From a virus, in IMG/VR virus record IMGVR_UViG_3300013120_000030, positions 1 through 64,000 of that record: 64,000 nt of DNA, one strand, 5' to 3'. A program made the position numbers and the translations under genes. Each line of letters begins with the position of its first letter. Positions within the stretch are counted from its first letter, which is position 1. Positions 7,895 through 58,700 of the stretch are shown here, one piece after another. The notes under the pieces are model-generated. The model was given only the letters and a program-made list of their open reading frames with translations. It was not told the DNA's origin and did not search any database.

Positions 7895-10250
7895 ATGAAA
7901 AAAAATAAAGAGACTTTATCAAGAGATATCTTATCAGATATAACTGTCTATGGAAAGTACGGAAAGTATCTTCCGTTAAAAAGGACAAGAGAACAATGGT
8001 CAGATATAACTTTACGAAATATGGAGATGCATACAAAGAAGTATCCTCATTTAGCAAACGAAATAGCAGAAGCTTACTCGTACGTATTATCAAAGAATGT
8101 ATTCCCTTCTATGAGAGCATTAGAAGATTCGACCCCTATTAAGACTAAGAAAGGATGGTCTACAGCTGGAAATATTAAGATTGGAGATGTATTATATTCT
8201 TCAGACGGATTAGAAACAAATGTTATTGGTGTTCGTAAATTTAAGAATAAACAACTATTTAAAGTTAGTTTTTCGGACAAATCATCATTAACAGCATGTG
8301 ATGAACATTTATGGATTATATCTACTAATGATGATTTAAAAAATAATAAGACACGAGTTGTAGACACGAAATATTTAAGAACACATTTAAAGCAAGGTTC
8401 TAAAAATAATATAGTTATACATAATCCTAATCCTATTCATATGGAAGAAAAAAAGTTATATATTGATCCGTATATTTTAGGACATTGGTTAGGAGATGGA
8501 TATTCAAATGGTGTTCAATTATCTACAAGTGTTGAAGATGCTGAATTTATTACAAATGAGTATAAACTTGCTGGATATAACACTAAACCTTCTGATTCGT
8601 CAAATATATGGACACACTCTGTATATGGATTAAAATGTGATCTAACTAAGTATAATCTTATTAATAATAAACATATACCTGATGATTATATTAACTCTTC
8701 TATTAGACAACGATTAGATATTATACAAGGTTTGATGGACAGTGACGGTCATATTACACCAGATGGTAGATGTTGTTTTCATAATACTAACATGTCTATA
8801 ATTAATGGGTTAAAAGAGATACTAGCTAGTTTAGGAATTAAATATACTAGTGTAACAGTTCCTAAAAAACGAGAACACCATAAAGATGCAATTGTTATAT
8901 CATTCTTTACTACTTTACAAGTATCTAGAATGCCTAGAAAATCTAAACATATCAGATCAGTAATCACAAATCCAAGAACACAAAGACGACATATTATAGA
9001 TATAGAGTCTGTCGGAGTTGGTAATGCGTCTTGTTTTCATGTTGACTCACATGATCATAGTTTTCTTGCCGGAAAAAGAATGATAACAACACATAATAGT
9101 ATGCAGTTCGGTGGACTTCCTATAGAGTTGTCACCTAACAGAATGTTCAACTGCTATAAAAAATCTACAAGATTTATAACAAAAAACGGGGTATCTTCAT
9201 TTGAAGACTTTGAACATGGAGATAAGATAATTGTTCCATCACATACTGGTAAGATGCAGAATGCTATAGTAAGATCATATGGTACGCAAACTTTTAATAA
9301 AGTTACTCTTGTAAGAGCAAAAGTTAAAAAAGAATTAGAAGTAACTTCTGATCATAAATGGCTACTAAGAGATGGTACAGAGACAACTAATCTTAAAAAA
9401 GGAGATGTGATCCTTGGTTCACCAAAAATATTTCAGAATTTTTCTTGGGTAGAAGCATCTCCAATGGAAAAATTATATTGGTGTTATGGATTCGTGTATG
9501 GTGATGGAACCAGGGTTACTTCTGGTAATAATAAGTATTCTATGGTAAGGTTATGCGGAGATGACTTTAAGTACTTACCTAGATTTAAAGAGATGGGCTT
9601 TAAATCATCAGAACCTAATAGTTGCAATGGTGATACGATAGTGTATACAGGGAAGTATCAAAAGACATCTCCAAACCCAGATATAGATGATCATAATATG
9701 ATAAAAGCATTTGTTGTTGGTTATTTAGACGCAGACGGTTCAAAAAATCCAGATTGGTATATAAATAATGATCTTAGTCCATATAAATCTATCCAATCAT
9801 CTGAAAAAGATCACATAAAGTTTATAGAACAATGTTTTGAGTCTGTAGGGTTTTATATAACATCAGAAAAAGATTTAACTGGTCAGAAAACTAATTACGG
9901 GACGAGACCTTTTACAAAGACATTTAGATTAAGTACAAAAGTTGGAACAACTAATATAAATAATCATTGGGTAGTAGAATCGATAGTTCCATCCATAAGT
10001 AAAGATACAGCATGGTGTCTCGAAGTAGAAGAAGATCATAGTTTTATCTTATCCGGAGGTATAGTGACAGGTAACTGTAGCACATTAGCCTGTGATAATA
10101 TAGCATCCTTTAATGAAGCTATGTTTTTACTACTAGGAGGATCTGGCGTTGGTGTAAGTGTACAAAAGCACCATGTTGAAGAGTTGCCAGAATTAACAGG
10201 ACCAAAGAAACGACAACGAAGGTACTTGGTATCAGACTCAATCGAAGGAT
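7895..10250 (+). CDS. Class II ribonucleotide reductase, exon 1 (with two inteins)
   Basis: 5' exon of an adenosylcobalamin-dependent ribonucleotide reductase that makes deoxynucleotides for phage DNA synthesis. The start at 7895 has AGGAGA upstream. Of 785 residues, only about 150 are RNR: residues 1-74 (ending KNVFPSMR), 402-419 (SMQFGGLPIELSPNRMFN) and 728-785 (CSTLACDN... GGSGVGVSVQ... LVSDSIEG). The rest is two inteins (8117-9097, 9152-10075). The reading frame meets a stop codon just after the exon boundary; the Trp codon of the conserved SIEGWADAV segment is split as T (10250) and GG (11219-11220) by a group I intron. The CSTLACDN cysteine is the conserved N-terminal active-site cysteine of RNRs. 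The class II call rests mainly on exon 2. No small subunit or activase gene is present in this window, as expected for a B12 enzyme. Confidence 0.88.
8117..9097 (+). mobile_element. Intein 1 of NrdJ (class 3-like, LAGLIDADG)
   Basis: A 327-residue insertion between PSMR and SMQFGG. It begins with Ala (ALEDSTPIKT, then KGW) instead of Cys or Ser, and ends ITTHN before a Ser. The class 3 signature is complete: Trp in block B (CDEHLW), Cys at block F position 4 (SCFHVDS, then HSFL) and Thr in block G (TTHN). In class 3 inteins the block F cysteine makes the first acyl transfer. A LAGLIDADG homing endonuclease lies inside, with motifs LGHWLGDG (about 8478) and GLMDSDG (about 8731). The frame is continuous with the host gene and all splice motifs are intact, so it should be active. 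Confidence 0.9.
9152..10075 (+). mobile_element. Intein 2 of NrdJ (class 1, LAGLIDADG)
   Basis: A 308-residue insertion directly before the conserved active-site cysteine: MFN, then intein beginning CYKKST, ending IVTGN, then CSTLACDN. The N-terminal Cys and the +1 Cys fit a class 1 intein. The penultimate residue is Gly instead of the usual His, an uncommon variation that may slow Asn cyclisation. Block B has TSDHKW; block F has EVEEDHSFILSGG. LAGLIDADG motifs are YGFVYGDG (about 9486) and GYLDADG (about 9719). Only 18 RNR residues separate it from intein 1. Confidence 0.9.
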
Positions 10251-11218
10251 AAAATAGCCTGTCCTTTTAAAAGCCATTTAACTGCTGGGACGCCCTTAGA
10301 GCTATTCTTACTACAACATATCCCGTTAAGGGAAGGTGTGAACGTTTAAAAAAAGAGTAGATTGGGTAATCAGCATCTAAGTTCCAATAGTAAGGAGTAA
10401 AATGCTAACTGGAAAAAGATCATCGACTATCTCGAAAGAGAGTACTCATGATACTAAGACAATTCATGAGGAAAAGGTGGCATCATTCTATTTCTATATA
10501 CTAAAAGATCCAAGAGATGGACTGATAAAGTATGTAGGAAGAACAATAGACCTAACGTCTAGATATAGACAACATATATACGAGTCTAAGAAGAATAAAA
10601 GAACAAAGAAAGACCGATGGATAGTTTCGTTACTAAGACGAAACATGAAACCTATAATGCGTAAGATATATGCTAAAGAATGTACATTAATTGAAGCTAT
10701 CAATATAGAAGCTTTACTAGTTAAATCTTTTGGTAAAAGGTATACTCTTAAGAATATGCCAGATAATTATCTTGGTACAGTGTTAACAGGTACTACTGTA
10801 TATCAGTACACTTTAGATGGTAAATATGTGTGTAGACATTCTAACTCTAATCAAGCTATGATATCTACAGGCATAAAAGATTGTAATATCCTACGGTGTT
10901 GTAAGAATCAGAACGGTTATGGTTCTAAGACAGCAGGAGACCACTTTTGGTCTTTTATAAAGTACGACACTTATCCACATAAGTATGTTTCTGACTGGAG
11001 AAATCGTAAAGGAAAAACTGTTGTTCAATATTCTATAGATAATACACGTATAAGTGAATTTACTACTGCTCGCGAAGCTGAACGTCAGACTGGTGTATCT
11101 TATAAAAAGATATCATCTGTGTGTAATAAAAGGCAGAAGAGTGCTGGTGGATTTATATGGTCTTTTAAGAATGATAAGATATAGTCAGACATGTATAGAA
11201 ATATACATGAGAGCGTCG
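10251..11218 (+). mobile_element. Group I intron in nrdJ
   Basis: A 968-base self-splicing intron. P1: exon AAGGAT (10245-10250) pairs with GTCCTT (10261-10266), with the usual U-G at the 5' splice site. P10: GCCT (10257-10260) pairs with the 3' exon GGGC (11219-11222). P4: GCTG (10284-10287) with CAGC (10371-10374). P7: GACTAT (10435-10440) with ATAGTC (11181-11186), the latter inside the classic AAGATATAGTC element. A perfect P9-type hairpin spans 11191-11208, and the last base is G (11218). Splicing restores SIEGWADAV of the RNR. The endonuclease frame starts between Q and R and fills the P8 loop. Confidence 0.93.
10402..11184 (+). CDS. GIY-YIG homing endonuclease encoded in the intron
   Basis: A 260-residue endonuclease that should cut intron-less nrdJ alleles and so spread the intron. 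The N-terminal catalytic module has FYILKDPRDG then IKYVGRT (the GIY-YIG pair), followed by RYRQH and a later conserved Glu/Asn stretch. The C-terminal half has two NUMOD1-like DNA-binding repeats: VYQYTLDGKYV... GDHFWSF and VVQYSIDNTRI... GGFIWSF. ATG 10402 has a strong AAGGAG; a GTG at 10477 with GAGGA is an alternative. The first ~25 codons overlap the intron's R and P8 elements and the TAG stop lies within the AAGATATAGTC (S) element, so RNA structure and protein are encoded in the same bases. Confidence 0.9.
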   Translation: MLTGKRSSTISKESTHDTKTIHEEKVASFYFYILKDPRDGLIKYVGRTIDLTSRYRQHIYESKKNKRTKKDRWIVSLLRRNMKPIMRKIYAKECTLIEAINIEALLVKSFGKRYTLKNMPDNYLGTVLTGTTVYQYTLDGKYVCRHSNSNQAMISTGIKDCNILRCCKNQNGYGSKTAGDHFWSFIKYDTYPHKYVSDWRNRKGKTVVQYSIDNTRISEFTTAREAERQTGVSYKKISSVCNKRQKSAGGFIWSFKNDKI

Positions 11219-19855: not shown

Positions 19856-21700
19856 ATGAATTTTGGTGGTAATTCGTCATATTTCGGTGGAGATCAATCG
19901 AATTTAGGAGTTAAAACAATGAAATATTATGCAGTAGGAACAACAACAGCTTGGAACGCTTTAAGTCCTATAGAACAAGCAAAGTATGAAGATCACTTTG
20001 AGAACTACGCGTTGTGTGCTGCTGATCCTGACTTTTCTGGTACTATAACAGATAATTATACAATAGAACAAATAAGTGATATTACACAAAGTAGTCAAGC
20101 TATATTTAATTTTAATAGTGGCGGTTTTGAGATTACTTTTGATGGCAACAATTATTGGATATATGATAATGTTGCTGGTTCAGATTTGATTAGAGTTATT
20201 GACATAGATTCTACATTATGGATCAATTATAGATGTCAAAATATAGTAACAAAAAGCATTGGATATCATTCATTTTTGCGTTGTGAGGGTGTAGGTGTAA
20301 TAAATGTTAAAAATGTATTATTTGATGGCAATAGTAATAATGGAAGTTTATCATATTTATATGATAACGCGAGTGCTACATATGTTAATTGTGTTGTAAT
20401 AAATGGTTACAGAGGAATGTCAACTACATCAAGTGGTGACGTAGTTATTGAAAATGCTACTTTTATTGATAATACTAATAGGGGAGTTTTTAGATCTAAC
20501 GGTAATGTAACATTAAGAAATGTATATTTATCCAATACAGTTGATATTTTTGGTACTGTTATAGATGGCGGAGGCATAGTAACAAATGACGCTACTGCAC
20601 CAGAAGTTGCTAATAGAAATATAAATTTAGGATTTTTATTCGCATCTAATGACCCATCTAACTCTAACTATTTATTTGCAAGAGACGATACATTGTATAA
20701 AGGTGTAGATCCTCAAATATCAGAACATGTAAATTATTTAGATGGTGAACCTATTGTATTAGGAGATGTGTATGTTGGTGCTAGAAGTAATAAAGTTGCT
20801 ATTCCTGTAAAATATGCAGTAGGAACAACCACTGCATGGAATGCGTTAAGTCCTGCAGAACAAGCTGAATATGAAGATCACTTTGAGAACTACGCGTTGT
20901 GTGCTGCTGATAGTGATTTCACAGGCACTATTACCGATGATTATTTAGTAGAACAAATAAGTGATATTACTCAATCATCAATCGCATTATATGCATTTGA
21001 TATTAATGGATTTAATATTGAATTTAACGGTATGAATTATTTGGTTAGTGATAATTATAGTTCACAGTTAATTAGAATGCAAACCGAAAATGTTACATTT
21101 ATAAACTTTAATATTAAATCTATTATAGATAAAACTGTAGGATATAGAGGAAGTCTACAAACAGAAGGTTTTACTACATTTATAAACTGTGTTTTTGACG
21201 GTAATAGTAAATTAGGGTGCGCATTAACATACTATGATAAACATATAATGTCAAATTCAATCATATGTAATTACACTGGTGCCAATCTTGGAGCATCGAA
21301 TAGAAATAGTGCTTATCTAGGAGATTCAACAGTTTATGAAAATGTAACATTTAGTAATAATTTATCAGACTTTAGAGATACGATTACGTCTGATCATACA
21401 ATAAGGAATACATATTACAATTTTATTGGATCGCCAACTGATGGTGGTGGTAATGTGAATAATACTGTAGTTCTACCTATTTCAGCTTTTATAGATCTAG
21501 TCGATTTTTTACCTATAATGGATGGACCTTTAAAGGTTGGTGTAGATCCACAAATATCTGGACATACAACTTATCTAAATGGTCCTACTATACCAGTTGG
21601 TACGAATGAGATATATAGTGGGGCTAATGGTTACGGTCTAGGAGCATGGAGATCTAGAGGATCTTGGTATGACTTTAGATTAATAAGACGAATACCTTAG
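19856..21700 (+). CDS. Duplicated beta-helix adhesin
   Basis: A 614-residue virion surface protein made of two copies of one ~295-residue unit. Each begins KYAVGTTTAWNALSP, with EQAxYEDHFENYALCAAD and EQISDITQSS, at about residues 22 and 318. The middle of each copy has PbH1-like coils (NVLFDGNSNNGSL; INCVFDGNSKLG; ENATFIDNTN; ENVTFSNNL). Each ends with a KVGVDPQIS segment (20699-21560). ATG 19856 has AGAGG; an internal ATG at 19919 with AGGAG eight bases upstream could give a shorter form starting directly at the first repeat unit. Probably a host-binding spike or a fibre tip protein. Confidence 0.65.
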   Translation: MNFGGNSSYFGGDQSNLGVKTMKYYAVGTTTAWNALSPIEQAKYEDHFENYALCAADPDFSGTITDNYTIEQISDITQSSQAIFNFNSGGFEITFDGNNYWIYDNVAGSDLIRVIDIDSTLWINYRCQNIVTKSIGYHSFLRCEGVGVINVKNVLFDGNSNNGSLSYLYDNASATYVNCVVINGYRGMSTTSSGDVVIENATFIDNTNRGVFRSNGNVTLRNVYLSNTVDIFGTVIDGGGIVTNDATAPEVANRNINLGFLFASNDPSNSNYLFARDDTLYKGVDPQISEHVNYLDGEPIVLGDVYVGARSNKVAIPVKYAVGTTTAWNALSPAEQAEYEDHFENYALCAADSDFTGTITDDYLVEQISDITQSSIALYAFDINGFNIEFNGMNYLVSDNYSSQLIRMQTENVTFINFNIKSIIDKTVGYRGSLQTEGFTTFINCVFDGNSKLGCALTYYDKHIMSNSIICNYTGANLGASNRNSAYLGDSTVYENVTFSNNLSDFRDTITSDHTIRNTYYNFIGSPTDGGGNVNNTVVLPISAFIDLVDFLPIMDGPLKVGVDPQISGHTTYLNGPTIPVGTNEIYSGANGYGLGAWRSRGSWYDFRLIRRIP

Positions 21701-24168: not shown

Positions 24169-24713
24169 TGATAGGCGGAACCAAAACTTTAATGAATCCA
24201 TGGGGATCGACACCTGTACACAGTAGAGGTACTATGGCTCAACGAACAACCGCTAAGATATTTCAAGCAAGTGAAAACAAAGCTGTAGGTTCTTCTATGC
24301 TTAGAAGAGCAGCAAGGAAGCCTGGCATGCGAGCAACTGTTGATAAGATTACTAACTTTATACAATCTTCTAATAGTAAGGTGGTAGCACCTGCTGGTAG
24401 AGGTTTATTTGCTACAGGAAATATGGGAGCAAAATCTGTAGGATCTTTTGGTAAGAAAGTTTTTTCTGTAGGAAGAAAGATGATGGGCGGTGGACTATTT
24501 GTCGCAGGTGCTGCTGCTATGGCAGCTGTTGCGATAATGAATGGTGGAATGTCTCAGGCTCAAGATATTATGTACGAAAGATACATGAGAGATGCTAGAT
24601 ATACTTCTAGACTTTTAAACAATACTAACGTTGGTTCTGCTTCTGGTAATAGTACGCTTAATACAGGGAATCATGTGGGATTATCGTTAGCACTACATAA
24701 GGGGAGGCACTAG
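24168..24713 (+). CDS. Basic Gly/Ala-rich membrane protein, possibly virion
   Basis: A 181-residue basic protein (MIGGTKTLMNPWGSTPVHSRG...). An N-terminal basic half is followed by a Gly/Ala hydrophobic stretch GGGLFVAGAAAMAAVAIMNGGM (residues ~109-130) able to cross or bind a membrane, then a polar C-terminus with SASGNSTLNTGNH. Its start overlaps the previous stop by one base. The pattern is like the neighbours at 23455 and 24828 and like the start of the giant protein at 52714, which also has a basic region around a short hydrophobic segment. Confidence 0.55.
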   Translation: MIGGTKTLMNPWGSTPVHSRGTMAQRTTAKIFQASENKAVGSSMLRRAARKPGMRATVDKITNFIQSSNSKVVAPAGRGLFATGNMGAKSVGSFGKKVFSVGRKMMGGGLFVAGAAAMAAVAIMNGGMSQAQDIMYERYMRDARYTSRLLNNTNVGSASGNSTLNTGNHVGLSLALHKGRH

Positions 24714-24714
24714 T

Positions 24715-24828
24715 TTGAGTAAATTGATGGACAAAAATACTATAATAGAAGAACAACAAAAGTGTTTTCATTGGAGCAACTTACAAATTCTCACTGCTGA
24801 AGAGAATATGCGTAAAGGAAGTAAATAA
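24715..24828 (+). CDS. Small hypothetical protein with TTG start
   Basis: A 37-residue frame (TTG read as Met, then SKLMDKNTIIEEQQKCFHWSNLQIL...) that starts one base after the preceding stop; GGGGAGG at 24701-24707 is at good distance for this TTG. The TAA overlaps the next gene's ATG (TAATG). An in-frame ATG at 24727 would give 33 residues. One Cys-Phe-His-Trp motif; no family recognised. Confidence 0.5.
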   Translation: MSKLMDKNTIIEEQQKCFHWSNLQILTAEENMRKGSK

Positions 24829-25799
24829 TGGCTTACGGATACCAAGATCAGATACCACAACAAGAGATGATAGGAGTAGGTGACATAGCTGGAGCTATGA
24901 TCAATCCTGTTAATTGGTATAAGTATAATCCTTCTATGTGGTCTGTAACCAGAGGACAAATAAAAGTTCCTTTAGTATCAGGAAGAAATATTAGACGTGT
25001 ATCTAACTTTGTTAGAAAATGGGGCGGTTCTATAGGTAATAGTACTGTTGACTTTATTAGAGACAAGTCTGGCCTTAAAGAGCTAGGCGGAGTAATGAAA
25101 TCCGAGAGTATCTGGGTAGGATCAGCTCCTATGAGTTCTGAAAACGTATTTGCTACGACTACAAAGTTCGGTCCTTTAAGAGAACAGCGTCTTGCAGCAG
25201 TGGTAGCTGAGAAATCAAGAAGAGCTAATATTGCTGCGTTTGACGACGTATTTAGTCCTACAACTCCTAGACAGTTTCCAGGACCTTATACTCCTCCTGA
25301 AAGTGTTGTAGCAAGAGCTAAGTTCGGAGCAGATAGAATACAGTATGTTAATGAGAACGTTTCTGCTTTAAAAAGGCAAGGTTATAAAGTTACAGATGAG
25401 TTGTACGATAGAAGTAGACGCTTTGGTAGAGAGTTAACCAGAAATATCAAGGGTACTTACACACGTATAAGTGGATTCGGTAAGGTAGGGATGAAGTTAG
25501 GTATGAGGGCTGGCGTTGCAATTGGCAAAGGGTTTGCTTATTATCAGATTGCGTCACTAATGTACAGCACAGCACAGATGGCATTCGAACCTTTAGGAAG
25601 AAAAGCTATTAGTACTATTGACTCTATTTTTAATGCTAAGACACAGATAGGAGTCCCAGAGTTAGGCGGTAACCTACCTATGCAATATTTAACAAGAGGT
25701 GCAGCAACAGAAAGACAACGAGCACTCCAAGCTATACAGAAGTCTAGACTTAATGCTAGACAAGCTATGGGTAATGAAGGTCAACTGTATCACCAGTAA
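24828..25799 (+). CDS. Basic membrane-associated protein, possibly virion
   Basis: A 323-residue basic protein (MAYGYQDQIPQQEMIGVGDIAGAMINPVNWYKYNPS...). A moderately hydrophobic region at residues ~221-250 (KVGMKLGMRAGVAIGKGFAYY, then QIASLMYSTAQMAF) could interact with membranes. The C-terminus (ATERQRALQAIQKSRLNARQAM) is Gln/Arg/Ala-rich. No enzymatic motif is seen. It closes the cluster of basic, partly hydrophobic proteins ahead of the terminase genes. Internal head or tail proteins that form a DNA-delivery channel have such properties, but homology is not evident. Confidence 0.5.
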   Translation: MAYGYQDQIPQQEMIGVGDIAGAMINPVNWYKYNPSMWSVTRGQIKVPLVSGRNIRRVSNFVRKWGGSIGNSTVDFIRDKSGLKELGGVMKSESIWVGSAPMSSENVFATTTKFGPLREQRLAAVVAEKSRRANIAAFDDVFSPTTPRQFPGPYTPPESVVARAKFGADRIQYVNENVSALKRQGYKVTDELYDRSRRFGRELTRNIKGTYTRISGFGKVGMKLGMRAGVAIGKGFAYYQIASLMYSTAQMAFEPLGRKAISTIDSIFNAKTQIGVPELGGNLPMQYLTRGAATERQRALQAIQKSRLNARQAMGNEGQLYHQ

Positions 25800-25867
25800 A
25801 GGAGTTATGCTGATACTTAGAGTCGATACCATAATACCGAATATAAACTTTAATGTAAGGAGTCTAC

Positions 25868-26553
25868 ATGAGTAAGATAAGTACGATACAAGGAATGGTA
25901 GATTTTCCTTTAAGAGATTACCAGATAGAAATATTGAATAATCTAGAAGAACATAAAATACAGCATTCTATTTAGGTAGACGAATGAGTAAGTCAACATT
26001 AATATGTTTAGACGCTATATACAATGCTATGACAGCTAATAGACCTACAAGAATACTTATGTATACACAGGTAAGAATGAAGGATGCATTATTTGATAAG
26101 ATTCTTGATTATAGTAGAGGTTTTGCTACACGTATAAGAAATAGTGATGTTAAAGAGGTGTTCTATGGTAATAACGTTATTAGGGTAGAAGGTATTTATC
26201 GACACGGTAATCCAACAAGTGCGATTGGACAATCCGCAGATTATATATACGTAGATGAGGCAGACTTTATTACTAATGACGCAATGGAGAATACTATATT
26301 ACCGATATCAAGTACATCTATTAATTGTAGAGTATGTATGATATCCACAATGTCTGGAATATCTAATACATATTTTAAACGATGGATGACCGACAGAAAC
26401 CTAACAAATGTATACAGTAATACATTTAATCATGTAAATACTGAACACAGTGTATATGTAGAAAACGATGAACTAGAATGGGAGTACTTAGGTTACTCTT
26501 ACTTAAAAGAAAATGTTTCTATTAGATGGCAAGGAAAAACACATGAAACATAA
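25868..26553 (+). pseudogene. Frameshifted, intein-free paralogue of the terminase ATPase domain
   Basis: Two frames together match the ATPase half of the TerL encoded next door. Frame 1 starts at 25868 with AAGGAG (MSKISTIQGMVDFPLRDYQIEIL...) and stops at 25975. A -1 shift at about 25961-25963 continues as AFYLGRRMSKST, the Walker A region, and runs to 26553 (open from ATG 25984). Shared with TerL are SDVKEV/SDVNEI, GQSADYIYVDEADFI/GQNADYIFLDECDYI (Walker B) and ILPIS.T...C. The nuclease half is absent. The P-loop is uninterrupted and reads GRRMSKS where TerL reads GRRMGKT. Most likely a decaying duplicate; a programmed frameshift is less likely, as no classical slippery heptamer is evident. 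Confidence 0.8.
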
Positions 26554-29500
26554 TACAGAACAATCAGAATGGTTCGCTGAAGTATGCGGAGATCCAGCGT
26601 TGTGGGCAGAGACATTCTTACGAGATCCTACTAACCCTCAAGAAGCTTTAAGTCTTAGATCATATCAACGAGAGATCTTAGAAGAGTCAAGAAACTATAA
26701 GTACATGGTCTTGAGGTACGGCAGGCGCATGGGAAAGTGTAGTAAGTATAGTGATATCACGCAGTTACACGATGGAACTAGGTTAACTATTCAAGAATTA
26801 TGGGAAAGATACAACAACGGTGAAGATTTAAGGTTAATGCAACTCGAGAAAGACTTAAGTATAACTTCTTCTATGCCTATCTTAATGGAAGACAATGGTA
26901 AGAAAAAGACTTTTGAAGTAAAGACTAAGAGTGGTAGAAAGATTAATGTTACCGAGAATCATCCTTTGTTAAGGATAGATGGTTGGCAACCTATTGCAGA
27001 TCTTACGGTAGGAGATCAGATACTTGTCCCTTCTAAGGTAGACTACGAAACTACCAAAGAGATAGACGATAGGCTTGTTAAGTTCTTAGGATACTTACTA
27101 GGCGATGGCATGATTACGTCTAGAATAGAACTAATAAATAAAGATATAAACATTATTAATGAGTTCGAACAATCCTCTAAATACTTTGATATTAATACAA
27201 GACATTGGTTAGAACGAGGATGTTACTATTCTAGAGTTGTACGTAAAGGTACAACTAATAATGAAGCTATAGACTATCTTAGAGAGTTAGGCTTGTTTGG
27301 TACTAACTCACATACAAAGTTTGTTCCTAATGTAATATTCGAACTTTCTAAAGACCAACAAGCTTTGTTCTTATCAAGACTTTACGCTTGTGATGGATGG
27401 GCTTCTGTTTCAAAGTCTAACAGGAAGTCTGGGAATTGTGAGATAGGTTATTGTTCTGTATCAGAAGATCTTATATACGGTGTGTCTGATATATTAGTTC
27501 GATTTGGTATTAAACACTTTATAACAGAAAAAAATATAAAGTATAAAGGTACACTTAAAAAAGCATTTCAAATACTTATATGTACAAAGGAAGACATCAC
27601 TACATTTATAAATGACATAGGTATCTTCTCAAAAGAAGAACAATGTAATAATGTTTTACATAATCTAAAAAATAGAAGTGATCTAAAGAATGGATACTTT
27701 TATCAAGTGCCAAAAGAAGCTATACATATATATGATATAAAAACGCCTCGTAAATATGAGATACGAAAAAATTACAATACATCTAAAGAAAAACTTCTCA
27801 GAGCAGCCAAAGATCAACGCATAGAAGACTTAGTTAATATATGTCATAGTGATACTTACTTTGATGAGATAGTTTCTATAACATCTACTGGTAATAATCA
27901 AACTTACGCTATAGAAGTTCCTAGAACTCATAACTATATAGTAGGTAATGTTATAACTCATAACACTGTAGCTTTCTGTGCAGACGCTTTATGGTGGACG
28001 TGCGCTCAACCTTTAGCGAGACTGTACGACGAAAGTGGTACTAAGCAGGTACCTTTAAAAGTCCTCGTTCTCACTCCTATGGACTCACAGATTAAGTTAA
28101 TATTCGATACACTACTAGAGCTATGCTCTGATTCGCCTTTTATACAAGAGTTAAATCCTAAGATAAGAAGATCAGACGTGAACGAGATATCATTTTCTAA
28201 TGGAAGCGTTATCAAAGGTATGACTATAGGTATATCTTCTGCTAACAAAGGAACATCTTGTCGTGGACAAAATGCTGACTATATATTTTTAGATGAGTGT
28301 GACTATATACCTAGAGAGATAATGGAAGAATCTATTCTACCTATTTCTAATACTAATCCTGATTGTAAGATAAGAGCTTGTTCTACTCCATCAGGTAAAC
28401 GTGACCTTTACTTCGAATGGTGTTTCACTAAAGGTAATAAAGTTAACACATCTAACGGATTCATTAACATAGAAGATATTAGACCTGGAGATAAAGTGTT
28501 CGGTGAAGATGGAGAAGAAGAGTTTGTTGTTAGACGTTATAAACAACCATATAAAGGTCAAGTATATTCCGTTGATACTTCTGTTGGTAAGTTTGAATGT
28601 ACTCCTAATCACGAAATTAAGACGTTCGAAGGTTTTAAAAGATGCGAAGATATAACTAAAAAAGATTATATAGCTATTCCTAAAGAGTCATATTCTAAAG
28701 AGAGAATTATTATAGATCCAAAAGTTTACTATAATGAATTTGATAAAGAAAGATGTAAAAACTTTAAAAGATATAAAGAGATTGGTTGTAAGACAACAGC
28801 AGCAAAAGAGATATATGGATCATCGTCGATGAGACGAATACTATTAAAATACGAGAATAATCAACGAGAGTATAGTGATCTATGGCCTATAGATAAACGA
28901 CGACGAGATAATATTATGCGTGCTCAGAAGTTTCTCGATAACATATATACAATAGATAGTAAGAAACTATATAGATTTCTAGGATATTATGTTGCTGAAG
29001 GAAATATACTAAAAGATTTCTCTGGAAATAGACACTACTATGCCGGTATTCAGCTAACATTTAATAGTAATGAGAAAGACTATATTAATGAGGTTATAGA
29101 TACTTCAACGTGTTTGTTTCCTGATGCCAAAATAAGTCAAACCAAGGATAGAACAGATAATTCAACATCTATTCTTATATACTCGTCTTGGATATCTTAT
29201 GCGTTCATAGAACTATGTGGAGAATATTCTAAGTATAAACGTATAAATCCTTCGTTATTATATCATGAGAACACTAAGTGTCTACTCGAGACAGCCATAC
29301 GTGGAGATGGAACAGGCAGTATAGATACTCATTGGACGTATGTGTCAAAATCTGAATCTTTGATTAATCAACTTTTATCAATAGCGTATAGATTTGGTAT
29401 GCCTGTTGGTAAATATTATAACGCAGCGTCTGACTCATATCAGTTAGGAAGAATATCTAGATTTGTTAGACACGAAGATGATACATACTTTATCAAGGTT

Positions 29501-30766
29501 AGAGATATAAAAGTTAGAGAATATGATGATTATGTTTATAATTTAGAAACTAATAGGACACACACATATAATGTTGAGTTTATGTGTACTCACAATTGTA
29601 CAAAGGCTGACGAACTAGGTTGGTGGCATAGACATTATCCTTCATGGCACGAAGATAACCCTAACTGGCTTTCTATCGACGAATGTCTTAGACAAGGGAG
29701 ACCTAAACATGAGAGTACAGAGTTTCAGTACAGATCTGTTATGTCTACAGAAGCATATAATCGTGAGTTCGGTGCAGAGTTCGGTGAAGAGAATCAAGGT
29801 GTTTATAAACATGAGTTATTAGATCGATCTATGGTACGGTATTGTAAAGAATACTTGTCACATAATACAGATGTATTCGATCCTGGGTTTCCTCAAAATC
29901 CTCATAACTTATACGTTATAGGTGTTGACTGGAACACTTACAAGAATGGCGGACAGGTCGTTATGATAGAGTATTGTAGAGAACCTACAATAGTTAACTA
30001 CTTTGACGACGAGAAAGGTGAAGATGTTTACATAGACTTCACTGGTAAGTTCAGACTCTTTTATAGAAAAGGTGTTAAGTCTAAACAGGCTACTCAACGT
30101 GAGACAAGAAAAGAGATCATAAGACTTTTAAAGAACTATAAAGTTGATCACGTATACGTTGACTATGGAGCTGGTGATACTAATATAGAAGAACTTACAC
30201 ATTACGGTAAAGATCATCCAGCACTTAACATAACTCAAAAACTTCATGTTGTAGACTCAGGTTCTAATATAGAACACTATGATCCCGTCCTAAAACAAAA
30301 AGTTAAGAAGAGAGCTAAGTCGATGATGATTAATACAAGTGTGGTATCTTTAGAAGAAGGCAGACTTGTACTTCCTAAAGAAGAAGATTCTAATCATAGA
30401 TTAGTGTCTCAGATGCGCGGTTACGTTATTAAGAGTACTACCATGAAAGGCGACTTTACATATGAAGGTGAAGACCACGTACTAGATGCATTTAATCTAG
30501 CTATATGGGGATTCCATCATCAGTATAGTCTTCTACTAACAAGTAACTATGATAACAAAGTAAGATTCATGGCAAATCCTCTACTAGATAGAGCACCTGT
30601 ACGACAACAAAAACCTCAGAGTCCTATACTAAGTGATTCAATGACGGTACTTAGGGATCCCGAGTTACCAGTTGTTAAAGATGGACCAAAAAAGAGACAA
30701 TTTAATCTTCCTTCGTGGGGTAAGCGATCGGTTGGTCTACAAAAAGGTTTTAGGAGACAGTTTTAA
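26543..30766 (+). CDS. Terminase large subunit, with two inteins
   Basis: ATP-driven DNA packaging motor and nuclease. The start at 26543 (MKHNTEQSEW) is used because AAGGAAA lies just upstream. The precursor of 1,407 residues contains inteins of 409 and 392 residues; the spliced protein has about 606, normal for TerL. Extein motifs: adenine-binding and Walker A (RSYQREIL... YGRRMGK|T), Walker B ADYIFLDECDYI, coupling motif CSTPSG, then RNase H-like nuclease with VIGVDWNTYKNGG, VYVDYGAGDT and GEDHVLDAFNLA supplying the acidic metal ligands. It overlaps the upstream paralogue by 11 bases and the next gene by one. A small subunit is not identified. Confidence 0.95.
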   Translation: MKHNTEQSEWFAEVCGDPALWAETFLRDPTNPQEALSLRSYQREILEESRNYKYMVLRYGRRMGKCSKYSDITQLHDGTRLTIQELWERYNNGEDLRLMQLEKDLSITSSMPILMEDNGKKKTFEVKTKSGRKINVTENHPLLRIDGWQPIADLTVGDQILVPSKVDYETTKEIDDRLVKFLGYLLGDGMITSRIELINKDINIINEFEQSSKYFDINTRHWLERGCYYSRVVRKGTTNNEAIDYLRELGLFGTNSHTKFVPNVIFELSKDQQALFLSRLYACDGWASVSKSNRKSGNCEIGYCSVSEDLIYGVSDILVRFGIKHFITEKNIKYKGTLKKAFQILICTKEDITTFINDIGIFSKEEQCNNVLHNLKNRSDLKNGYFYQVPKEAIHIYDIKTPRKYEIRKNYNTSKEKLLRAAKDQRIEDLVNICHSDTYFDEIVSITSTGNNQTYAIEVPRTHNYIVGNVITHNTVAFCADALWWTCAQPLARLYDESGTKQVPLKVLVLTPMDSQIKLIFDTLLELCSDSPFIQELNPKIRRSDVNEISFSNGSVIKGMTIGISSANKGTSCRGQNADYIFLDECDYIPREIMEESILPISNTNPDCKIRACSTPSGKRDLYFEWCFTKGNKVNTSNGFINIEDIRPGDKVFGEDGEEEFVVRRYKQPYKGQVYSVDTSVGKFECTPNHEIKTFEGFKRCEDITKKDYIAIPKESYSKERIIIDPKVYYNEFDKERCKNFKRYKEIGCKTTAAKEIYGSSSMRRILLKYENNQREYSDLWPIDKRRRDNIMRAQKFLDNIYTIDSKKLYRFLGYYVAEGNILKDFSGNRHYYAGIQLTFNSNEKDYINEVIDTSTCLFPDAKISQTKDRTDNSTSILIYSSWISYAFIELCGEYSKYKRINPSLLYHENTKCLLETAIRGDGTGSIDTHWTYVSKSESLINQLLSIAYRFGMPVGKYYNAASDSYQLGRISRFVRHEDDTYFIKVRDIKVREYDDYVYNLETNRTHTYNVEFMCTHNCTKADELGWWHRHYPSWHEDNPNWLSIDECLRQGRPKHESTEFQYRSVMSTEAYNREFGAEFGEENQGVYKHELLDRSMVRYCKEYLSHNTDVFDPGFPQNPHNLYVIGVDWNTYKNGGQVVMIEYCREPTIVNYFDDEKGEDVYIDFTGKFRLFYRKGVKSKQATQRETRKEIIRLLKNYKVDHVYVDYGAGDTNIEELTHYGKDHPALNITQKLHVVDSGSNIEHYDPVLKQKVKKRAKSMMINTSVVSLEEGRLVLPKEEDSNHRLVSQMRGYVIKSTTMKGDFTYEGEDHVLDAFNLAIWGFHHQYSLLLTSNYDNKVRFMANPLLDRAPVRQQKPQSPILSDSMTVLRDPELPVVKDGPKKRQFNLPSWGKRSVGLQKGFRRQF
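26738..27964 (+). mobile_element. TerL intein 1, in the Walker A motif
   Basis: A 409-residue class 1 intein between GRRMGK and TVAF, so the ATPase P-loop is split until splicing. It starts CSKYSDITQLHDGT and ends VITHN with Thr at +1. Block B is ENHPLL (TENHPLLRIDGW), block F EVPRTHNYIVG. LAGLIDADG motifs are LGYLLGDG (about 27087) and LYACDG (about 27379). All splice residues look intact. Confidence 0.93.
28421..29596 (+). mobile_element. TerL intein 2, after the ATPase coupling motif
   Basis: A 392-residue class 1 intein between DLYFEW and CTKADELGWW, just after motif STPSG. It starts CFTKGNKVNTSNG and ends MCTHN with Cys at +1. Block B is TPNHEI; block F NLETNRTHTYNVE. LAGLIDADG motifs are LGYYVAEG (about 28979) and AIRGDG (about 29295). 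It is unlike intein 1 in sequence, so the two were probably acquired separately. Confidence 0.93.
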
Positions 30767-32067
30767 TGGCAGATAATAAGAAGTTAACACAGTTAGATAA
30801 TCTTGTTGGTTCAGAGGTAACACCCGAGTTTCTTAATGAGATGATGATAGAGGGAAGGATAAGCTTCCCTTTTAAACCTACCACAACAGCAGCCGTGTCT
30901 ATTCCAGGAGATCAATCAGACGATGATGGGAATATTGAACAGTATATAGATGGTATTCTTAACAACGAAGATCAGATAAAACTTTTAGAAGACATGAGAG
31001 ACGATATGCTGCAAGGTATGAAGATTCCTCCTGCTAATGACGATATAGCAGATGCGGCTAAAAAGTTAGGCTCAGAAGATGGTACTATTACAAAGAAAGT
31101 TTTTGATACAGCTGAAGCTATCCTTGATCCTGATATATTTATACCTAATCAGATAGGTGTAGCCCCTGACATAGGAGCGCTTATCGGTGATAGTAACATA
31201 ACAGGCGACTTTGTTGCTTGTAGTGAGGTTACACAAGGTATAGCGGATAACTGGGAGATAACAGGCCAAGACACTGGTACTAACGTAGAAGGTGATAAAC
31301 ATAAGGTTAAGAATACTGTTCAAAAAGCTAAGAAAAAGTACGATAAGAAGTTATGGGATATGTTCGTATACATCTTCAGAATGTTATGGTGGAATGAGAT
31401 ATGGCCACGTGTTGTACTCTTTCACATAGAGATGACAGAGAAACTTGTAGCAGTTCCTATCGATATACCTTTCCTTATCCTACGATTCTTTAAGAAGTTC
31501 ACTAAGAAAAACTTCTACAAGTACGGACCTGTACACAGACTTCTTAATAAGTTGAAAATATTCTTACTATGTTCTCTTCCTAGAGCTATATTCAAAGACT
31601 ACGATCCTAGAAAAGAGATAAAAGTCTTTTACAACGATAAGATAACACCTGTTGTAGATATGTGTAGTATAGCTAAGCCTGTTAAAGAATGCTTAGAAAA
31701 TGATGCACATGCACCTAAGTCTTTTAATAGTAACGCTGAAGGTGATGAAGATGGATGGCCTAAAGATCAGAAGAAAGCCAGAGACATGCAAGAAGGTATA
31801 CGTGATACTATTAATAGAGAAACATCATCAACAGATGCTACATGTGCTCCTATGAAGTTCATGGAGTTACTAAAAGAAGAAGCTGTAGAAGGTCCAGGAC
31901 TTCCTCCTAACTGCGTAGAAGCAGCTAAGAAAGTTCTAGATGCTGTATACGAAGATGCTATAAAATTCGGTGAGTATGATGGTCTAGATGATAGTGCTAT
32001 AGATCAGATAAAGTCTACCTTAGATGGTAGTATTAAAGATGCGATTAAGGAGTCAAAGAATGGTTAA
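30766..32067 (+). CDS. Virion-region protein of unknown function
   Basis: A 433-residue protein (MADNKKLTQLDNLVGSEVTPEFL...) whose ATG overlaps the terL stop. The first ~190 residues are acidic. A central segment is rich in aromatic and hydrophobic residues (MFVYIFRMLWWNEIWPRVVLFHIEMTE, then VPIDIPFLILRFF) with basic flanks, which might be amphipathic or membrane-associated; the C-terminus is acidic again. Cysteines occur in the last 130 residues. It is encoded between terminase and portal, so a head or portal role is plausible, but I do not recognise a family. Confidence 0.6.
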   Translation: MADNKKLTQLDNLVGSEVTPEFLNEMMIEGRISFPFKPTTTAAVSIPGDQSDDDGNIEQYIDGILNNEDQIKLLEDMRDDMLQGMKIPPANDDIADAAKKLGSEDGTITKKVFDTAEAILDPDIFIPNQIGVAPDIGALIGDSNITGDFVACSEVTQGIADNWEITGQDTGTNVEGDKHKVKNTVQKAKKKYDKKLWDMFVYIFRMLWWNEIWPRVVLFHIEMTEKLVAVPIDIPFLILRFFKKFTKKNFYKYGPVHRLLNKLKIFLLCSLPRAIFKDYDPRKEIKVFYNDKITPVVDMCSIAKPVKECLENDAHAPKSFNSNAEGDEDGWPKDQKKARDMQEGIRDTINRETSSTDATCAPMKFMELLKEEAVEGPGLPPNCVEAAKKVLDAVYEDAIKFGEYDGLDDSAIDQIKSTLDGSIKDAIKESKNG

Positions 32068-52713: not shown

Positions 52714-55700
52714 ATGGCTTATTACGATCCAAGAACAAGTGACGAAAGATACTATGATCCTCATAGGAATACTAGTGGTAGTCTTACTAGTAGCGTCACG
52801 TCTGGTATAGGTTCATTTGCTAAAAATGCTGTAGGATACATGGTTATGTACTCTGCTATGACGTTCGCGGGTGGCGTCACTAGTAAGTTCATAGGTAATA
52901 TAGCTAAAACGCAAGCTCTTAAAGGTACAGGTACTATAGCTAAAAGAATATCTGCCCTAAAGGCTCCTACCTTAGGTAAGATAGCTAAGCAATTCACACC
53001 TGTGCGTCACGCTGCTACAAGAGTGAGGATGGCCACGCGTCCTTTAAGACAAGCCTATAAAAAGAGAGCTAGACTTCTCGAACGAGTTAATAGGAAAGAT
53101 TCGTTATTAGGAGATAAAGCAAGATTTACTAGTGCTTTTAGAAACGGTAAGACATTAGCAGCAACAGCAGGAAATCTTTTATATAAACATGGAATCAAAG
53201 GATCTGTAGCAGGATATGCTTGGGATAGTGTAGCCGGTAACCTTCCTATGTATGGCTTAGAAGAAAAGGCTGCTTGGAATGTTCCTGGACACGTAATGAA
53301 TTACGCTAAATATATGAAGGATAATATCATTACATTTAGCGCGTTTGGCGCTATCGGTCCTATATATAAAGGTGCTAGGGGTACTATAGGTCTAGGTCTA
53401 AGAAACGTAATGGAGAAGAATACTGCGTTTAGAGATAAGATTTTAGGTAACTTAGCTAAGATTACAAGACCTAGATACTCGTCAGTTCAAGCTCCTACAA
53501 AAGCTACTAATTCTATATTCAAAGAAGATGTTAATAATTTTAATACTGCTAATTCTTATAATGTCTTTAATAAAGCTATAGATGCAACAAAGGCTGCTGG
53601 TAAAACGTTTTACTCTGCGTTTATAGAGAATGCTAGAACAATGTTCGCCGAAGCTGGTAGACATGGTTCTCATAATATTCATAAACCTACAAAAGGAAGT
53701 GTTACATCTTTCTTATCAAGGTTTAAGAAGAATATAACTGATCATTGGCAAATGCATCGCGAGCAAGCAAGGTATGGAAGAACTGTAGGTGTTCTTGAGT
53801 CCGAAGGTATGCGCACAATGAAGACCTTTGAACACTTAGGTAACATTGAAAGTACAGCCGGACAAGCATTAGAACAGACTACAGCTAAGAATACCAACAT
53901 GAATCTCATTAACTCTATACGTGACGATCAGTTAAAACCTAAGAATTTTTTAGCACAAGTCCTAAGTCTTAGACCTACTGTTACTGGTGATGTTATGAAT
54001 ACCGACTATATCAGTAGAGTAGGTAGTAACTTCGCTAAGTACTTTCCTAAGAGCAAAGCTCATGTTGTTGATCAGGCTATGAGTAATGTTAGAATGGGTA
54101 ATGATTATTATTCAAGAGGTAAGTTCAATGTAGACTTATCAATGCTTAGTCCTCTACATCAGTTAAAGAGGGTTACTAATAAGATAATGGGTCTTAATCT
54201 TTCTTTTATGATCGGACTACCTCCTGTAGGAAGAGATCTATCTCTAGGTAACATAACTGGTTGGAACTCATTAATGGGCGGTAGTGTAAGATCTACTCCT
54301 TTTAATAAAGATACGACAGGACTAGGTCTCATAGTTAAGTCTGGTGGAGTAACAGATACTAGAGGCAATCTTGTACAACGTGGAACTCCTAGAACATTAC
54401 AACAACTAGCTGCCGATACTTTAGGTGAGAACATGAGTGATAACCTAAACGTATCTCTTATTAATGGGAAGTTCTATGCTGCTGATGGAGTCAACCTTAC
54501 CAATCTTAATTCAATGAATACTGTTCTTAAATATTCTCATCCTGAGATCTTTGGTAAAGCAGGAGAAGCAAAACTTTCTAATATTAAAGAATGGATTTAT
54601 CATAGCTCTAGAGAACCTGGTAGTATCATGGAAGCTAATAAGTGGTTAACAGACGCTAATAGAAATACTGCGTCTAATCCTTTTCAATGGGCAATGAAGA
54701 AACTTGATTGGGGAGTACCAGAAGCTATTCCTAATGCGTGGAGAAAACTCAAAGAAATACTAACACCAGGACGTATACGTCATGCTGGTAAGAACTTGAA
54801 TCACTCTCAAGATCTACAGGCAGAAATGTGGGAAAATTTATTAAGTAAAAGAATCGATTACGATAAACTTAAAGCACATATACCTATTATGCGTGACTCT
54901 ATGGAACATACTGGGCAAGAAGTCGGTATGTTGATGCAATCTCCTACTATATACCAAGAGATTGCTCATAATAGCAGATACCTTCAAGCTAATCAAATGG
55001 ACTCAGCTATATTTCATAGCGATGAGAAGTTTATGACAAAACTTTTCAATATGCAAGAGAGTGCATTAGATCAAAATGATGTCTTCTGGAAACTAATGAA
55101 GAACCCTGATTCTAAAGCTATTTACGAGACAGCATTATGGAATCCTAAAAAAGCCAAGGATGCTATTCCTTTTAAGAGACAAGGACGATTATCTGATTAT
55201 AACTCAATGAATGTACTGAAGACTCAGTTTGTGACAGAAGGTCTTAATGTTGACTATTCTATGACTAATATGCATCCATTCGTAGATGCAGCTGATACTT
55301 TGTTTAAACAAGGACATATATCTGGTACTCAATCTACTGCTATGAAGATGTATGGTTTTGTTAGTACGTTATTCGCTGATGGCAATCTAGATAACTTCGC
55401 TAAAGGAACTCCTACACCTCAAGATAAGACAGCCTTAGGTGCTGTTATTAATACTTTTAAAAAGAGACACAATATTGAACTAGAGCACGCTATGGACTAC
55501 ATTAGTAGAACAGAGTTTAGAACTCCTAGTAGAGATGGTAAGTTGTTTCAAACTTTGAAAGAGACAATCTTAGATCCTAGACTTCTTCCTAGTGTAAGAG
55601 AACAAGTTTATGATAAGAGTCCTTTCTTTGCTTTAAGTGTAGGCGATAACGGATCTGGTAAGTTTCAAACCGGCATTAAGAAAGCATTAGATATTGGAGC

Positions 55701-58700
55701 AGAGCGTCTTACTAACCTTATTAAGATGACAACAGGTCTTAGGAGAGATCCTTTTAAGTACGGTGACGGTGTACGCGGTGCAGCCAGATTTATTAGTACA
55801 AGAGGTGGACAGTTAGCTGCAGCAGGACTTGCTTATAAAGCGTTAGATGCGCTCATAGCAGATAATCCTATGCTCGACGAGACAGCTCTTGATCAAGGTA
55901 TAACAGGATTTATCGCCGATAATGTAGCTAAGACTCATTTACTATCATCAAGAATAGCTAATATGACAGGTATAGCTGGCGTAGGTAGATACTTAGACGG
56001 TTTAATGCCAGGGTTTGTATCTAGTGCTCCTGGGGCTATTGTCGGAGCTGCTCTAAACTGGCGACGAGGAATAACTGAGACAGCTGTAGGAGCTGTTAAA
56101 GGTGCTATCTCTAATAGAGTTCTTTCGCCATTAATGCCTGATATGACTAAAACTTACGATCAGTTAGAAGCCGAGTACTCAGGTAAAGAAGAAGTTCCTA
56201 TCATCGAAGGTAGAATGTGGCTCATGGGTACTACTCCATGGCAAGGTAAAAGAGTTATTGGATGGAGACCTAACTGGTATCAACGTATGCATTCGAGATG
56301 GAAAGCTTCTGATAGTTTATACGGTAGTGAATTAAGAAAGCTTTTACATGAGCCTATATTCCCGGTTGGAATAAGTGTTGGAGACATTATCGACCCTTAC
56401 TACATGGAACGAAAACACTACTTCTCAAGGCCTTATGCGGAATGTATTTATCCGCAAGCATTTGTTCAAATACATAATGGTATTAAAATGGTTAAGGATA
56501 TTGTAAAAGGTGATAAGATATACGATGTGGATGGTGTGATTTATAATGTTAAAGATGTTACTAGTAGAAATGTTAAAAATAATGAGAATATTCACTCTGT
56601 TAATTTGGTAGGTATTCATGAACCATTAATAATAAGCGAAGATCATAAACAACCAATTATAAAAGATATTAAATGTAAGTATAAGTCAGCATCGAATAAA
56701 TCATGTGTAGGAGAACACAAAGGGATATGTAAAAAATGTAAAAGTAAAAGAACCTCGTTTGAAATTGATTGGGTTGAAACAAAAGATATAAATGTTGGTG
56801 ATTTTCTAGTTAAACCTATAGTTAGACCAGTGTATAATGGTGATGTTATACAATTATCAAAATATATCAACTTTCGTAACTATGTTGTTGAAAAAGATAT
56901 ATGTTATATTATCGATAAGAATAATAAAAAAACAAAAACAAATGCACAAAATACATTCCGTATTGATGACAAAATAGCTTATTATTTTGGATTGTATCTT
57001 GCTGAAGGTTGGATAAACTTTGGAAGAAACAAACCTCATACAGTTAATACTGTTCATAATATGAAAGAATATGATTATGTTAAAACATATATTACACATA
57101 TGTGTTCAGTATTCAAATGTAGTTACTCAGAGGAAAAACATGATAACTATGTAACATTTCATATACATAATGTTCTGTTAGCTGAATTAATATTTGGTCT
57201 ATTTAATAAAGCATCTGATAAAAAATGTATTCATTTTACTAAGGAAATAGATAGAAAAATAGTGGCTGGAATTATATTCGGTGATGGTCATTATGATATA
57301 TCAAATGTTGTCTTAACTAATACATCATTAAATATTCATGGATATGTTACAACTGTTCTTGAAAATGATATGATTCCAATATGTATTAAAAAACATTGTA
57401 ATAACGGAAAACAATCATATAGAACTTCATTCCCATATTCGTATCTAGATGAGTATAGAATGAAGTATGATTCTAACTATAAAAATAAATGTATACAAAC
57501 TCCTAAAGGGCGATCTAATAGAATATATTTTCGTAATGGATCAATACTAAGACGGGTATTATCTAATGATATTATAGAGTATAAAGATAAACTATACGAT
57601 ATAGTAACAGATTCACCAAAGCAAAGTTTCACTTTATTATCTCATTGTATACATAATTCTGCAGACTTTGGTGCAGATATACCGTTAGGATTAGGACCTA
57701 TAGTTAGTGCTACATTAGGACAAGTTATTAAACCTAAGAAACAGATGCATAGAGAGTTCATGGAAGGTGACGATGTTATAGGTGACTCAGACTTCGCGGC
57801 CAATCCGCCTCCTACGTATAAAGAGATGAGAGGTATGATGAAGACTGGTACATGGAATTCTAATAGTATTGGCAGCAGATCATCATTTATGGGAACAGCT
57901 AGATATGGTGGAACAAAACTATATGGACAACGTATGGCTGACCAAGTACTAGATAACTTTGAAAGTGCAATGGGTCTTGTAGGTTTCGCAGGTCATTCTA
58001 TTAGACAAGGTCTTACCTCGGACGCTGCTATTATTCCGACTGTTGAAACTGCTGGTAGAATAGCTTCACAGTCAAGGTCTTACTATGATATGAATCTTGG
58101 TGGTCTCGGTGTATACTGTTTACCTTATGATGGTAAGGTTCTAACACCTAACGGACTAACTAATATAGGTGAGATTAATAGTGGTGACATAGTTTACGAT
58201 CAATGTTATAGTAAAAAAAAGGTAACGAATACATTCTCACGTATATGTGATGATGATGAGCGAATGTATACCTTTACTTTAAACGCTGGCAAAACGCAAA
58301 TTGATTGTACATGGAATCATCCATTAGCTATATATAGGAAAGAAACATGTCATGACGGTAAAGTAAAACCATGTATACCTAATAGTAAAAAACATTGCAC
58401 TATATGTACGAAACAAGATAAAGAAGTTTATTGGGATTGGGTCCAAGCTCAAGATGTTAAAGTCGGTGATTACGCAGTGATGCCTCTGCCTAAATCAGAT
58501 ACTAGTGTTGAAACTGTTGATCTTAGTGCTTATTCAGACTATTCTTTTTCTGATAAATATATATATACGAGAGCAGGTAACGGATATATAACTGCATTAG
58601 AGATGCTAGAACATAATCCATCATTAACAAGAAAACAACTAAGAGAGTATGTAGATGATAAAGATGCTAAAGAAGCACTATATTCTATTAGAAAAAATAA

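Follow-up and report, generated by a model that had tools for sequence, protein, structure and literature searches.

How does a virus come to carry, upstream of the gene for its large terminase subunit (TerL), a second TerL ATPase domain that is split over two reading frames? This domain lies at 25868-26553 of the window, which covers the initial 64,000 bases of an IMG/VR virus record 140,183 bases long; the copy, terL and the gene preceding them are on the plus strand. A sequence-only reading had described it as a decaying copy and proposed that it could be left over from a terminase since replaced, a decoy or a repair donor, and that its DNA may resist the endonuclease of a terL intein. The decaying copy is supported, whereas the relic, immunity, donor and decoy proposals are not.

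The copy and its relationship to TerL

The gene upstream of the copy (323 aa, 24828-25799) is syntenic in relatives, where it is located directly 5' of terL. The spacer that follows (25800-25867) contains the old ribosome-site position (aaaggag-tt-ATG) with a 22-codon ORF, followed by the ribosome site of the copy itself (gtaaggag), elements identified by direct reading of the sequence and comparison with the junctions of relatives. The N part of the copy (25868-25975) begins with ATG 25868, preceded by this aaggag-type site, and consists of 35 codons and a stop; it includes the LRDYQ stretch and matches the phrog_5989 terminase (E 0.0017). The C part (25957-26553), a diverged TerL ATPase domain of 198 codons, terminates with a stop at 26551-26553, its last 11 bases being shared with the beginning of terL. 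The frame of the C part has a stop at 25954-25956 and that of the N part a stop at 25973-25975, and therefore the frame change, which amounts to one base and precedes Walker A, lies within the stretch 25957-25975 that these stops bound on both sides. The C part contains the Walker A position, GRRMSKS (25975-25995), where the G before K has become S and where a possible internal ATG is found at 25984; Walker B, YIYVDE (26242-26259), with the acidic pair DE kept; and the motif III position, STMSG (26344-26358), which reads STPSG in the family. The adjoining terL (26543-30766, its start judged from relatives) is intact and contains two inteins, one between the K and T of Walker A (26738-27964), with a LAGLIDADG_3 domain, and one just 3' of motif III (YFEW^C; 28421-29596). 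The copy spans both intein sites, the second being after YFEW, and is intein-free at each; it also lacks the RNase H-like nuclease half that is C-terminal in TerL. In a phrog_2 search of the entire 140,183-base record, no other nuclease half was detected, the matches being the copy, TerL and one chance-level match inside the terL frame. Frames, alignment and this search thus agree with the sequence-only reading on a copy with neither intein nor nuclease half and with a frame change.

The homology of the copy to TerL is, by sequence comparison, far above chance level. When the inteins are removed from the virus's own TerL, the C part of the copy is 34% identical to it over 161 columns (E 2e-22), and LRDYQIEIL of the N part aligns with LRSYQREIL (E 0.012 alone). 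The profile comparison also recovers the relationship: the C part matches the phrog_2 terminase over residues 3-178 (E 1.2e-14), and the match to Pfam Terminase_6N (E 1.9e-4, 21.6 bits) falls just below the cut-off of 22. These matches bear out the earlier assignment of the copy to the TerL ATPase half, including the Walker A and B positions, and the alignment likewise sets GRRMSKS against GRRMGK^T, with intein 1 sitting between K and T. Among the PHROG 2/Terminase_6N large terminase subunits (those of the window's virus family, Moorella phage MTATph1, Bacillus phage KLEB27-3 and Acinetobacter phage ME3 serve as comparison), the copy is alike in the ATPase half from Walker A to motif III and falls in the TerL clade, but differs in the absence of the nuclease half, the broken frame, the G to S change in Walker A, the P to M change in motif III and several in-frame gaps. 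The structure model of the copy is of low confidence (mean pLDDT 66.5, residues 156-198 below 50) and is not main evidence; its best matches in the PDB are the terminase ATPase domains 4znl and 5oe8 (E about 1e-5 to 1e-4, TM below 0.6), mixed with Arf GTPases.

Distribution and descent

With the nuclease half of TerL as query, 9 related IMG/VR contigs were obtained (58-64% identity), and the junction 5' of terL is readable in all of these except L013, which begins inside TerL. At none of these 8 junctions is there a copy upstream of terL, intact or otherwise, and the spacing between the upstream gene and terL is about 9-39 bases there versus 743 here. When the copy was searched against the full length of 12 related records, most of them fragments in which absence covers only the sequenced parts, 11 gave one match, TerL itself, and the twelfth, the record of L013, gave none. 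Barring intein-split TerLs, there is no second TerL ATPase region at any locus outside the window's record among the loci inspected. With the copy alone as query, no orthologue was confirmed in IMG/VR and no match was obtained among GTDB genome contigs; with queries A1 (10 loci) and A2 (8 loci), all IMG/VR matches were in TerL frames. A tblastn search of phages with the copy gave no match at a threshold of 0.01 and, at 10, weak matches, mostly to annotated terminases, the best with E 0.3. The plasmid search produced one match (E 4e-6), to a TerL-like protein of 673 aa from Cetobacterium somerae plasmid p3. This protein (L029, 8578-10599 of 188,661 bases) is annotated as hypothetical, and the plasmid may be a phage-plasmid. 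Scans with the portal and with the Cetobacterium TerL yielded no locus. A narrow search of open-access literature brought up no description of TerL ATPase paralogues in tandem.

The descent of the copy was addressed with trees of the ATPase domain, the fullest of which contains 20 rows, namely 19 TerLs, 8 of them from the window's virus family, and the copy. L010, whose tblastn matches are the same as those of L008, and L013 were left out of the trees, and the L009 TerL row ends at the tblastn end. In the 20-row tree, the copy groups with the 8 family TerLs with starred support of 97/99; its pairing with the virus's own TerL has support of 65/95, unstarred. Over successive trees, the support for the copy within the family was 95/87, 89/98 and 97/99; the very long outgroups Brizo and Manatee were present in the first tree only and later dropped. 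The end branch of the copy is 2.47 long, compared with 0 to 0.4 in the family TerLs of the 20-row tree, and an alternative tree in which the 8 family TerLs stay together with the copy outside is unrejected (AU p 0.398 with 20 rows and 0.512 with 16). For private residues shared with the copy, the own TerL shows 9 versus 5, a small count but the sole clear excess among 8 rows (9 versus 8 for L012 and 9 versus 16 for L008). A stretch of roughly 13 residues after Walker A is found in all family TerLs and is missing from the copy and from most outgroups, which points either to a deletion or to a position of the copy beyond the family. Overall, the copy belongs to the TerL lineage of the window's family, most simply as a lineage-specific partial duplicate that may derive from the virus's own terL or from that of a near relative.

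These data also bear on the relic proposal, in which the copy would be what remains of an earlier or foreign terminase whose place the intein-bearing TerL has taken. A foreign source would fit the 34% identity, the long branch and the absence of the insert that family TerLs have after Walker A, but the copy sits in the family clade at the support given above, and the present TerL, 58-64% identical to those of relatives in the nuclease half, is their syntenic orthologue, to which the copy is an addition. We consider such a replacement very unlikely.

Divergence of the copy and the break in its frame

The copy has lost residues that nearly all other TerLs retain. Where one residue accounts for 90% of a column in the other TerLs (the 15 in the 16-row alignment), it is retained by the copy in 15 of 24 cases, compared with 20-24 of 24-27 in each of the others. 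The losses include the Walker A glycine (G before K, present in all 15 other TerLs), the motif III proline (STP to STM) and the RGQ arginine; the acidic Walker B pair is retained despite these catalytic changes. Because these three residues are lost, ATP hydrolysis by the copy is unlikely, and the ATPase activity has probably disappeared.

The copy nevertheless looks like coding sequence. Its codon score in frame is 0.26 bits per codon, compared with 0.28-0.48 for genes and 0.27 for the corresponding piece of the own TerL, and is clearly negative in the other frames; for the N part, which offers only 30 codons, the score is 0.18. In a simulation, with substitutions only, of neutral drift from the TerL ATPase DNA down to 36% identity, none of 1000 sequences remained free of stops, the mean being 10.6. 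The gene-like codons and the outcome of the simulation therefore indicate that the copy diverged as a translated protein, and we infer that the frame break came late.

The reality of the break was approached through the remainder of the record. A scan with 205 relative ORFs, covering 53,546 of the 140,183 bases, found zero other frame switches; a second version, which flagged 36 bins when 39 one-base losses were planted, again found zero. Neither version is able to detect the break in the copy, for which the set contains no close relative. Given the zero counts, the contig is not rich in frame errors and general sequencing sloppiness can be dismissed where relatives allow comparison, although a single base error at the break may exist. 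Within 25957-25975, there is by reading no slippery heptamer (X XXY YYZ) in register, and the RNA fold at the frame change is not unusual (z 0.50); with neither slippery site nor stimulating structure, programmed frameshifting was rejected. Rfam returned zero matches on 24500-31000, and introns and other RNAs of known families were rejected on this ground; promoter- and terminator-like sites occur at shuffle level only.

It is against this background that a working gene has to be considered, one encoding an ATPase-dead, TerL-like pseudoenzyme that could, for instance, dock on the portal or on TerL; its frame change would then stem from faulty assembly, mark a minority variant or be bypassed. 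The long stop-free frame, the gene-like codons, the good ribosome site and the stop overlapping the terL start are what such a gene would show; the drift simulation points to change under coding constraint, and alteration of near-universal catalytic residues with retention of the Walker B pair is in keeping with a pseudoenzyme. An assembly error fits poorly with the lack of other frame switches in the bases covered, and bypass with the lack of a slippery heptamer or unusual fold; in addition, no relative has the copy. On balance, a working gene seems unlikely. A related scenario, in which ribosomes stop at the end of the N part and re-initiate at ATG 25984 to make a 189-aa product, with translation coupled into terL, draws on the position of this ATG 8 bases past the stop at 25973-25975 and on the overlap of the product's stop with the terL start. 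However, this start is inside Walker A (MSKS), so that GRR is lost, its ribosome site is weak and comparative support is absent, which makes re-initiation distinctly improbable.

Compared with an intact homologue, the copy carries a disabling lesion, the frame change with the stop that follows it, and this lesion together with the loss of near-universal residues upholds the earlier description of the copy as decaying. The explanation that we favour, and consider reasonably probable, is that the copy is a decaying pseudogene, a partial duplicate of the ATPase half of terL that is lineage-specific among the contigs seen and has no packaging role. The duplicate would have been inserted 5' of terL, directly behind the upstream gene and equipped with a separate ribosome site, would have changed fast while it was translated, losing residues needed in ATP hydrolysis, and would have been broken lately by the one-base frame change before Walker A. 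The good ribosome site, the 198 stop-free codons that remain, the unrejected tree position outside the family and the missing stretch after Walker A count against this explanation. At present, the copy probably has no function.

Inteins and possible roles of the copy

The inteins of terL had suggested that the copy, which aligns with both of their sites and is empty at each, serves them as an uncut decoy or as a repair donor at the homing site. Over the 42 bases around the intein 1 site, the copy is identical to the own TerL at 24, inside the range of 19 to 31 found for seven ordinary intein-free TerLs, and immunity to the endonuclease is accordingly neither special nor shown. LAGLIDADG enzymes recognise DNA, so that the amino-acid change from G to S is in itself without relevance to the endonuclease. 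There is no long identical DNA tract between the copy and the homing target: outside their physical overlap, the longest exact word shared by the copy and the terL gene is 10 bases, compared with a mean of 11.2 and a maximum of 14 for shuffled copies. A tract of 10 bases is too short for recombination. The site match and the word length led us to reject a homing-site role; neither immunity nor a donor function appears supported by the sequence, nothing was found in favour of a decoy, and service to the inteins is extremely improbable.

The intein-free state of the copy is the ordinary condition. Among the 8 relatives with a readable junction, 6 have no intein in Walker A; in the remaining 2, L008 and L010, whose tblastn matches are identical, a small intein occupies an earlier position. 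A small intein at this place, GRR^C...HN^xGK, is present in the TerLs of L008 (5844-8084), L010 and Acinetobacter phage ME3 (L004, 4068-6350), three residues before the GK^T site of the window. "Classic" TerL1-a P-loop inteins insert between the Walker A Lys and Thr (PMC5050341), the same site as that of intein 1 of the window's terL and of the inteins of KLEB27-3 and L047; this likeness belongs to the adjoining terL and not to the copy.

The virus is rich in inteins. Several intein-splicing matches (G000:C1, about 59278-62931) are located in an open frame reported as 3774 codons, apparently a giant gene with inteins, which extends over 53000-64000 of the window and beyond, passing its end, and hence is missing from the window's ORF list. 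More such matches are found at G000:C1:118323-119450, the record's strongest, and at 123986-124156. A 785-aa ORF at 7895-10252 has a further intein-like match, and a nearby ORF at 11191-12654 matches ribonucleotide reductase (Ribonuc_red_lgC, E 4.7e-6, 26.0 bits against a cut-off of 23.9). Elsewhere in the window, a 614-aa protein (19856-21700) has an internal repeat, YAVGTTTAWNALSP...EDHFENYALCAAD, present twice, and a weak beta-helix match.

Damaged terminase-like proteins are known from other phages. The terminase-like Pham3880 protein of cluster C1 mycobacteriophages, according to PMC5050341, retains only 75 ATPase residues and no P-loop. By description alone, it resembles the copy in that its ATPase domain is damaged, but Pham3880 is without the P-loop region and has an intein at the ATPase end, whereas the copy is nearly whole in this domain, intein-free and frame-broken. 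T4 motors tolerate inactive gp17 subunits, packaging less well (PMC8589836). A rather improbable scenario is that the copy is an expressed, ATPase-dead TerL paralogue, retained next to terL as a regulatory or spare subunit of the packaging-motor ring, with the frame break or re-initiation determining its amount.

The copy is ordinary in kind, and mildly unusual in that an essential motor gene was partly duplicated beside itself and the frame was long kept. If the pseudogene explanation is true, the partial duplication of a motor gene has been caught after losing its chemistry, at about the time when its frame broke. If the copy is expressed, one would ask whether inactive motor subunits serve viruses as brakes.
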